Assembly (NCBI GenBank): GCA_947167515.1
Contig: CAMVIM010000029.1
Span: 1 to 45,631 of the forward strand
Origin: an uncultured Prevotellaceae bacterium
Lineage (GTDB): Bacteria; Bacteroidota; Bacteroidia; Bacteroidales; Bacteroidaceae
Direction of reading: 5' to 3'
DNA length: 45,631 bases
The notes beneath the pieces are model-generated. The model ran no database searches. It was given only the letters and a program-made list of their open reading frames with translations, and was not told the origin of the DNA. Both the position numbers and the translations under genes were made by a program. This document shows, in pieces, positions 1,740-2,301 of this stretch; the stretch's first letter is position 1; each line of letters opens with the position of its first letter.

Positions 1740-2264
1740 AGGTTTTTTGTTCCTATTCGTCCAACCCCGACTTTCGGTTTTTAAGTTAAAAGAAACAAAA
1801 GGACGTGGGTTGCTGTCTTCCTGCTAATCCCTGTTTCAGGCTCTGGTAAACCGCTTTTCTGAGATTAGCAACCAGTTAGCCCACGTCAGGGAGAGATATA
1901 CAGAAGTGGCACTTGCAGCCAATACAGTTGTACACACGTACCTATACAATAAGGGCTGTCAAGTGACTTGCGGATAAATCACCCACGTGGACGTTCCGAT
2001 TGCGCTATCTTCAAGAAAAGCTTCTCAATTTACCAGATTTTGAAACATGAAGATAAGCGTTCGTAAACGCCCTTTTGGTGCAGGGCAGTCGGTGTCTGCG
2101 CGAGACATGCACTGCGGGTGCGCCAAACCATCTATGTAAGAATCCCGCTCCCCCTCTGGATGGAGTGCCAAGGCCGAGGCCATGCACCGCCCATCGGGCT
2201 AACTGGATTTGTGACCTGCACACGGTGCCGACATCCTTGCGGATGGGACAAATGTGTGGAAGCC
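1740..2264 (-). ncRNA. Candidate long structured RNA or leader upstream of the 105-aa protein
   Basis: About 525 nt with no convincing reading frame, preceded by an excellent Bacteroidota promoter (see 2270-2301). Read on the minus strand it contains a hairpin with a GCAA (GNRA) loop at 2245-2232, a GCGTT/AACGC hairpin with a TACG loop at 2070-2057, an 8-bp pairing between 2055-2048 and 2013-2006, and a nested rod in which ACGTGGG (1886-1880) pairs with CCCACGT (1809-1803) and GCTAATC (1869-1863) pairs with GATTAGC (1829-1823). A further ACGTGGGT copy at 1988-1981 can pair with the same CCCACGT element, so two pairings exclude each other. This is not tmRNA, RNase P RNA or SRP RNA by their hallmark motifs. 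Whether it is a free ncRNA or a regulatory leader of the 105-aa gene cannot be decided from sequence. Confidence 0.5.
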
Positions 2265-2269
2265 GGTTG

Positions 2270-2301
2270 CAAATGTACAAACTATTTTGGCACATTCCAA
2301 A
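2270..2301 (-). promoter_or_regulatory. Strong Bacteroidota promoter reading into the structured region
   Basis: On the minus strand TTTG (2301-2298), a 20-bp spacer and TACATTTG (2277-2270) match both boxes of the Bacteroidota primary sigma promoter (TTTG / TAnnTTTG) exactly. Transcription should start around 2263, downstream of the only long minus-strand frame in this area, which argues against that frame being translated. Confidence 0.72.

Follow-up and report, generated by a model that had tools for sequence, protein, structure and literature searches.

The window analysed here, a stretch of 45,631 nucleotides from an uncultured Prevotellaceae bacterium, raises the question of what is transcribed from its minus strand between positions 2263 and 1740, where a promoter is followed by a long region rich in hairpins. 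A preliminary description of the sequence had offered two answers, a large non-coding RNA class or a complex regulatory leader for the 105-amino acid (aa) orphan protein encoded immediately afterwards (1422..1739, minus strand). All features discussed below lie on the minus strand unless stated otherwise, and coordinate pairs in descending order follow the direction of transcription. Direct reading of the sequence confirmed the promoter exactly as first described (2270..2301), with TTTG at 2301-2298, a 20-nt gap and TACATTTG at 2277-2270, an arrangement that we take to be of the Bacteroidetes type. It predicts a transcription start near 2263 and is retained with few changes among the closest paralogues of this copy in the genus. 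The view that no credible reading frame follows was also borne out: no frame is conserved, and the single long one (94 aa, 2295-2011) is interrupted by in-frame stops in all 13 paralogues tested.

The stretch from 2263 to 1740 is one copy of a multi-copy structured RNA family that is widespread in the Bacteroidota. Searches of the kind first suggested, by nucleotide (BLASTN-type) comparison and by covariance model, returned homologues in the Bacteroidales. At the DNA level the element matched four places in its own genome, 19 of 45 genomes of the genus and 38 of 251 genomes of the family, close copies within the genus being 73-87% identical across long matches. R1, a covariance model trained on 28 sequences of the 3' domain, matched 199 of 298 family genomes, spread over 19 of the 22 genera, with 1 to 11 matches per genome, where about 3 of the 298 would be expected by chance at the threshold used (E 0.01 per genome); at the level of the order it matched 57 of 247 genomes, representing 44 of 166 genera. 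Training sequences for R1 came from 11 of the 199 matching family genomes and from one of the 57 order genomes. Many of 20 distant copies that we read are compact (~165 nt), and a model of this compact form (R3, 19 training sequences) matched 47 of 345 genomes in a phylum sample at E 1e-4 or better, covariance-model E-values being rough throughout. Two of these 47 genomes (G876 and G992) had contributed to training, and the best match outside the training genomes reached 5.8e-25 (G989). A further model, R2, missed the compact form and matched only 4 of the same 345 genomes at E 1e-3, two of them training genomes (G000 and G517). In the genome of the window, the combined matches of R2 (E 0.05) and R3 (1e-4) fall at 18 distinct places, of which some are weak, the count leaving out an opposite-strand match at one place.

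A pattern scan of named genomes returned at least 120 stretches. Among the 80 matches listed are Bacteroides bouchesdurhonensis, B. rodentium, B. congonensis, Phocaeicola massiliensis, Xylanibacter rarus and X. ruminicola, together with Parabacteroides and Muribaculaceae assemblies. Four of the 80 listed records, all metagenome assemblies, are titled Clostridia, Lachnospiraceae or Clostridium (L132, L134, L171 and L174); these titles count against a family confined to the Bacteroidota, and the records are possibly misbinned. Rfam 15 yielded no match at gathering score on the element in the window, in 18 loci or in 14 further loci, and relaxed searches gave none on the window element at E up to 10 and none in 8 loci at E up to 1. 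We did not find the family in Rfam 15 or in the open-access literature that we searched, and the idea of a large ncRNA class is right insofar as the RNA forms a separate family that no Rfam entry matches. The structured RNA is confirmed as real, with a scope larger than had been supposed from the single locus.

The RNA opens with a 5' domain (2077..2263) that has this length only in the main group of the window genus. It holds a hairpin with a GNRA loop, CAUCC-GCAA-GGAUG, which reads CACUC-GCAA-GAGUG in copy L023. This hairpin and a second one, noted at the outset for its TACG loop, both exist, the latter as a UACG loop at 2070-2057. Its five pairs are formed in 63/67, 63/67, 65/67, 66/68 and 62/68 rows (counted without a control), with A-U and G-C exchanges between rows. 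The segment concerned (2057..2072) has two possible partners, since GGGCGUU (2072-2066) can pair locally with AACGC across the UACG loop or with AACGUCC at 1995-1989 (H1). Helix H4 joins the 5' end to the strand in the middle of the element by pairing CCAGUUAGCCC (2196..2206, read 2206-2196) with GGGCUAACUGG at 1882-1872; at 77 loci the cognate H4 duplex exceeds non-cognate ones in strength (p=3e-5, better in 62%), as it does at the 62 loci outside the main genus group (p=2.5e-7).

Covariation, the check originally proposed for any homologues, is very strong across the family when set against row shuffles or non-cognate partners. An alignment of 80 sequences to the covariance model (A4), whose fit to the model structure favours high pair counts, has H6, H5 and a 3-bp loop helix paired in 98.2% of 1598 cells, H6 by itself in 98.7%, and changes on both sides at 15 of 20 pairs (95 such cells); these pairing and covariation values were reached by none of 500 shuffles. 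Long forms were also aligned without the model, 71 non-redundant rows being kept once near-identical rows had been removed from 80; L115, for which no start was found, and six duplicates were left out when the rows were prepared. Among these rows H1 is paired in 87.7% of 562 cells, the stem AUCUUC/GAAGAU in 85.9% and helix K in 89.7%, with 68 covarying cells in K, and the values for H5, H6 and H7 are 95.2%, 99.0% and 94.4%. Each of these six helices exceeds all 300 row shuffles.

The strongest result of the structural analysis concerns the blocks flanking K, in the loops of two large stem-loops. Stem-loop 1 (2007..2054) is closed by AUCUUC/GAAGAU and stem-loop 2 (1823..1869) by H5, GCUAAUCUC/GGGAUUAGC. 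In the window, UGUUUCA at 2047-2041 pairs with UGAAACA at 1838-1832 (H10), UCUGGUAAA at 2037-2029 with UUUACCAGA at 1850-1842 (K) and GCUUUUCU at 2021-2014 with AGAAAAGC at 1860-1853 (H3), so that the loops of the two stem-loops are complementary over ~24 nt. The three blocks vary between copies and are matched within each copy. Mean duplex energy for H10 is -9.8 when both blocks come from one copy and -2.3 when they come from different copies (n=70), with the within-copy duplex stronger in 100%, and for H3, where the test is independent of alignment register, it is -10.0 against -2.8 (n=71, stronger within in 97%); p is about 3e-13 for both. Two crossed block pairings served as controls and showed no gain in strength inside a copy, the first giving -1.7 within and -1.9 between copies (p=0.14) and the second -2.5 and -2.9 (p=0.018 in the opposite direction). 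The 3' domain had initially been modelled with a local pseudoknot of the H type between CUAACUGG and CCAGAGCC, which gave way to this better supported loop-loop pairing. The loops might also pair between two RNA molecules, by analogy with the ornate RNAs of PMC12286853, as homodimers would likewise predict matching within each copy.

The proposal of two mutually exclusive pairings is supported with one correction. The positions given for CCCACGT (1809-1803), ACGTGGG (1886-1880) and ACGTGGGT (1988-1981) are all accurate by direct reading, and the 3' strand does pair with the middle strand, conserved as GACGUGGG (1880..1887, read 1887-1880) with CCCACGUC at 1809-1802 (H6, 99% of cells). The competing state is a different one: in place of ACGTGGGT with the 3' strand, the conserved alternative is CCACGT at 1990-1985 with ACGTGG at 1886-1881 (H7, 94.4%), for which CCACGU (1985..1990) forms the upstream strand. 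H6 and H7, both conserved, therefore use one common strand, the GGG of which also takes part in H4. Evidence for H7 differs between the two forms of the RNA. Long forms show slight covariation (5 cells) and a pairing of 94.4% against a shuffled maximum of 94.1%, whereas in the compact set 97.3% of 150 cells are paired, a value that none of 500 shuffles reached, and 4 cells differ at both positions of the pair. In compact copies H7 is a tight hairpin (for example CUCACGA/UCGUGGG), with a UACG loop in several. A partner search located an upstream partner in 29 of 31 loci, a shuffled middle strand doing so in up to 23 of 31, and some of the partners taken from wide windows are probably chance picks.

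H6 is directly followed by U's. The 3' strand CAACCCACGUC and its U-run (1788..1812) form an end which, together with the H6 stem, resembles an intrinsic terminator, although the ~70-nt loop that the stem encloses sets it apart from a compact terminator hairpin. Across 152 loci, with positions numbered from the first C of CCC, T makes up 88-96% at positions 8-12, 76% at 13, 42% at 14 and 64-80% at 15-17; the site finder itself contained four T's, which biases positions 8-11 and leaves 12 (89% T), 13 and 15-17 free of that bias. Past the U-run lies a downstream element (1761..1777), in which GGGUUG at 1767-1762 pairs with CAACCC at 1812-1807 (H8). Cognate H8 duplexes average -9.8 kcal/mol, non-cognate ones -7.6 and shuffled ones -5.8 (n=152; p=1e-17 and 1e-25 against non-cognate and shuffled, respectively), and the cognate duplex beats the non-cognate mean in 86%. 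Lying beyond the U-run, H8 cannot itself decide termination. A hairpin around the H8 segment (H9), convincing by eye, was dropped as such after a weak automatic test (p=0.007; it beats shuffled sequence in 55% of 135 loci, 17 of 152 having been dropped beforehand). In the window genus the downstream element also carries a GTTRRRY-like sequence, which resembles the integron attI/attC consensus; this candidate was set aside once the element turned out to be the partner in H8. The pairings sort into two groups, the local hairpin with H7 and H8 on one side and H1 with H6 on the other, which is the basis for proposing two states, and we infer that each group switches together.

A gene usually follows the RNA. 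The tests of ORF neighbours, as of H8, H4, H9 and the U-run, drew on the earlier loci and on L117-L196 (80 of the at least 120 pattern-selected loci, L197-L236 being left out). An ORF of at least 50 aa starts within 15-220 nt at 145 of 156 non-redundant loci, its start codon lying at a median of 81 nt from the initial C of the 3' strand. By a simple measure, the N-terminus is hydrophobic in 102 of the 145 encoded proteins. Under a stricter rule, a co-directional ATG-initiated ORF of at least 100 aa beginning 15-150 nt after the 3' strand, 96 of 146 loci qualify against 10% (maximum 13%) of random places in the same loci. The preliminary description is thus supported in kind as to a regulatory leader, and its large structured RNA with exclusive pairings is supported by the covariation in homologues. 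A leader specific to the 105-aa protein, the variable gene of this copy, is not supported. That protein occurs in 2 of 46 genomes, its own included; its sole relative among the 45 other genomes is the second gene at another RNA copy (L014), scans of genome contigs and viral contigs gave no confirmed relative, and it has no Pfam or PADLOC match. As the next gene differs between copies and a single relative exists in the 45 other genomes, the linkage was rejected and the protein is incidental to the RNA.

The downstream proteins fall into 87 clusters, the largest being Cys-rich peptides (14), leucine-rich-repeat proteins (12), HTH-like proteins (7) and lipoprotein-like proteins (6). Genes following the RNA range over BspA-like repeats, lipoproteins, Cys-rich peptides, HTH proteins, DUF2971, methylases and TonB receptors, with no obvious common pathway, and the same gene families are found again behind the RNA in different genera. 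A Pfam search of 50 proteins, made up of the 105-aa ORF of the window and 49 ORFs that lie downstream of other copies, was extended by 9 more and identified LRR_5, DUF2971, WG repeats, DUF4384, a caspase domain, FHA, Big_2, Kdo transferase, CsgG, TonB plug, N6-methylase/HsdM_N and SNF2/PLD helicase domains, with one HEPN family match slightly under the cut-off and no match for many of the proteins. PADLOC called type I and IIG methylases and HKD+Snf2 proteins. Among 20 distant copies, the next co-directional ORF stands at 220-580 nt in 10 of 20, with the look of a TonB receptor (one checked has a plug domain), at 40-50 nt in 5 of 20, and two (L287 and L294) have no co-directional ORF of at least 90 aa. 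Small orphan proteins (85 aa, and families of ~100-105 aa) are variously combined after the RNA at L001, L007, L011, L013 and L014, as if exchanged like cassettes.

On balance we lean towards the element being a cis-acting leader that would choose between a terminator and an antiterminator and thereby control whatever gene comes next; judged from sequence, it probably turns surface, defence or peptide genes on and off. Transcription is predicted to begin near 2263, and the two stem-loops would then fold with their loops paired over ~24 nt, as the covariation supports. Back-pairing of the middle strand with CCACGU in H7 would prevent the terminator, while its forward pairing in H6 would present a stem followed by U's and stop transcription before the gene. 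In transcripts that read through, the freed 3' strand could form H8 with the element located after the U-run and ahead of the start codon. We propose that a signal acting on the loop-loop core, whether a small molecule or a protein, sets the choice. Attenuation is favoured by the U-run and by the strand common to H6 and H7, and action in cis by H8, through which the RNA pairs with sequence past its own U-run, as well as by the usually short distance to the start codon. The variety of downstream genes argues for a general cue or factor. More tentatively, and with rather less confidence, we entertain a phylum-wide Bacteroidota class of regulatory RNA, with several copies to a genome, built on a giant self-matching loop-loop duplex, in which the code in the loops is private to each copy and differs from that of its paralogues, so that each copy would recognise only itself and form a self-addressed switch, placed before surface, defence and peptide genes, under one common signal.

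It is unlikely, but worth weighing, that the element works by protein-dependent antitermination or leader binding, as exemplified by EAR RNA and UpxY-type NusG factors, and does not sense a ligand as RNA. That many unrelated genes stand under one element suggests a general factor, and the hydrophobic N-termini of most downstream proteins (102 of 145) also count for this reading. A small HTH protein might take part: the HTH-like cluster of 7 lies directly downstream of the RNA, and a divergent ORF of 102-121 aa is found just upstream in 8 of the 20 distant copies (L281, L285, L287, L288, L293, L294, L295 and L298). Three of these eight ORFs are above the Pfam cut-off for HTH_3, one is a weak HTH_26 match and four have no match. 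A DNA-binding HTH protein could, however, act merely on the promoter. These neighbouring HTH genes slightly raise our estimate for a protein-dependent element and slightly lower that for the cis-acting switch as we have framed it. We likewise regard as doubtful a small RNA acting in trans from its own promoter and terminator, with the downstream gene expressed from elsewhere. Promoter and U-run would delimit a discrete transcript, and the distant copies with a co-directional gene 220-580 nt off (10/20) or absent (2/20) fit such an RNA, but H8 pairs the RNA in cis with sequence beyond the U-run, and elsewhere the spacing to the ATG is tight (median 81 nt) and associations with the same genes recur across genera.

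A mobile or recombination element, in which the RNA would anchor the exchange of genes before a downstream leucine-rich-repeat gene, seems to us improbable. Close copies in the window genus, at 73-87% identity, do precede different small genes, often followed by a BspA-like gene; in the closest, similarity extends some ~30 nt beyond the promoter on its upstream side, and among L001, L023 and L003 it goes further still and includes part of an inverted repeat. Against this, most copies have no visible conserved element end beyond the transcript, the same genes remain behind the RNA across genera elsewhere, and a phage, plasmid or viral origin was rejected since phage and plasmid collections gave no match to the element and no viral contig contained its exact pattern. 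Lastly, the idea that the hairpins arose by chance in an ordinary protein-coding or AT-rich intergenic sequence, for which the mechanical 94-aa frame is the one argument, is refuted by the in-frame stops and the strong covariation, and we give it virtually no weight.

As a cis-acting leader, the element would share with transcription-attenuating riboswitches and other terminator-antiterminator leaders a structured 5' leader, a strand engaged in two exclusive helices and a U-run before the gene; a conserved structured leader upstream of a gene is what we found, with exceptions among the 20 distant copies. It differs in the large loop of its terminator stem, in pairing past the U-run, in its very mixed downstream genes and in having no known ligand. 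The EAR (epsC) RNA of Bacillales (RF01735) is likewise a leader found before surface genes and affects transcription termination, but the element has no match in the Rfam scans, belongs to a different phylum and precedes many kinds of gene. ROOL, GOLLD and OLE are described in PMC12286853 as large, ornate pseudoknotted RNAs with loop-loop contacts and poorly understood function, ROOL and GOLLD being prophage or phage RNAs often near tRNA islands. The element is similarly large and pseudoknotted with loop-loop contacts, but unlike ROOL and GOLLD it precedes genes; membership of either is not supported, with no Rfam match, no phage match and 0 viral contigs containing the pattern. The HMP2_1881 candidate RNA is given in PMC8040213 as predominantly Bacteroidetes, 108 bp long, near radical-SAM domains and expressed at 13 of 13 places. 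It might belong to the family, at copies preceding Cys-rich peptides.

If the cis-acting switch is correct, many Bacteroidota, including Bacteroides, Phocaeicola and Prevotella-type gut genera, would use a regulatory RNA absent from Rfam 15. Repeat proteins, lipoproteins, TonB receptors, Cys-rich peptides and restriction-modification genes, which are otherwise treated separately, would then come under shared control. The helices are predicted exactly enough for compensatory changes to test them directly.

The window contains a second, compact copy of the family at 38695..38862 on the plus strand (R3 E=5.1e-7, outside the R3 training set), in which matched loop blocks and a U-run can be read directly. 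It is followed by a 103-aa ORF at 38932, beyond which lie an ORF that looks acyltransferase-like (39250-40254) and one with DEAD and T5orf172 domains (40662-43094). This copy shares with two other compact copies of the same genome (L245 and L247) a common 5' stretch, GAGTTG..CCTCTTGG..GAA, and L248 is close to it. The next gene is a type I methylase at L245 and a helicase at L247, which suggests a subfamily linked to restriction or defence. Two inverted repeats border the first locus, one upstream of the promoter (2367-2444), which has a similar counterpart ahead of copies L023 and L003, and a long near-perfect one (1259-1371) between the 105-aa ORF and the leucine-rich-repeat ORF. The sole gathering-score match to Rfam in the window is FopS (RF04319, 23900-23973, plus strand), a Bacteroidetes family of paralogous small RNAs.
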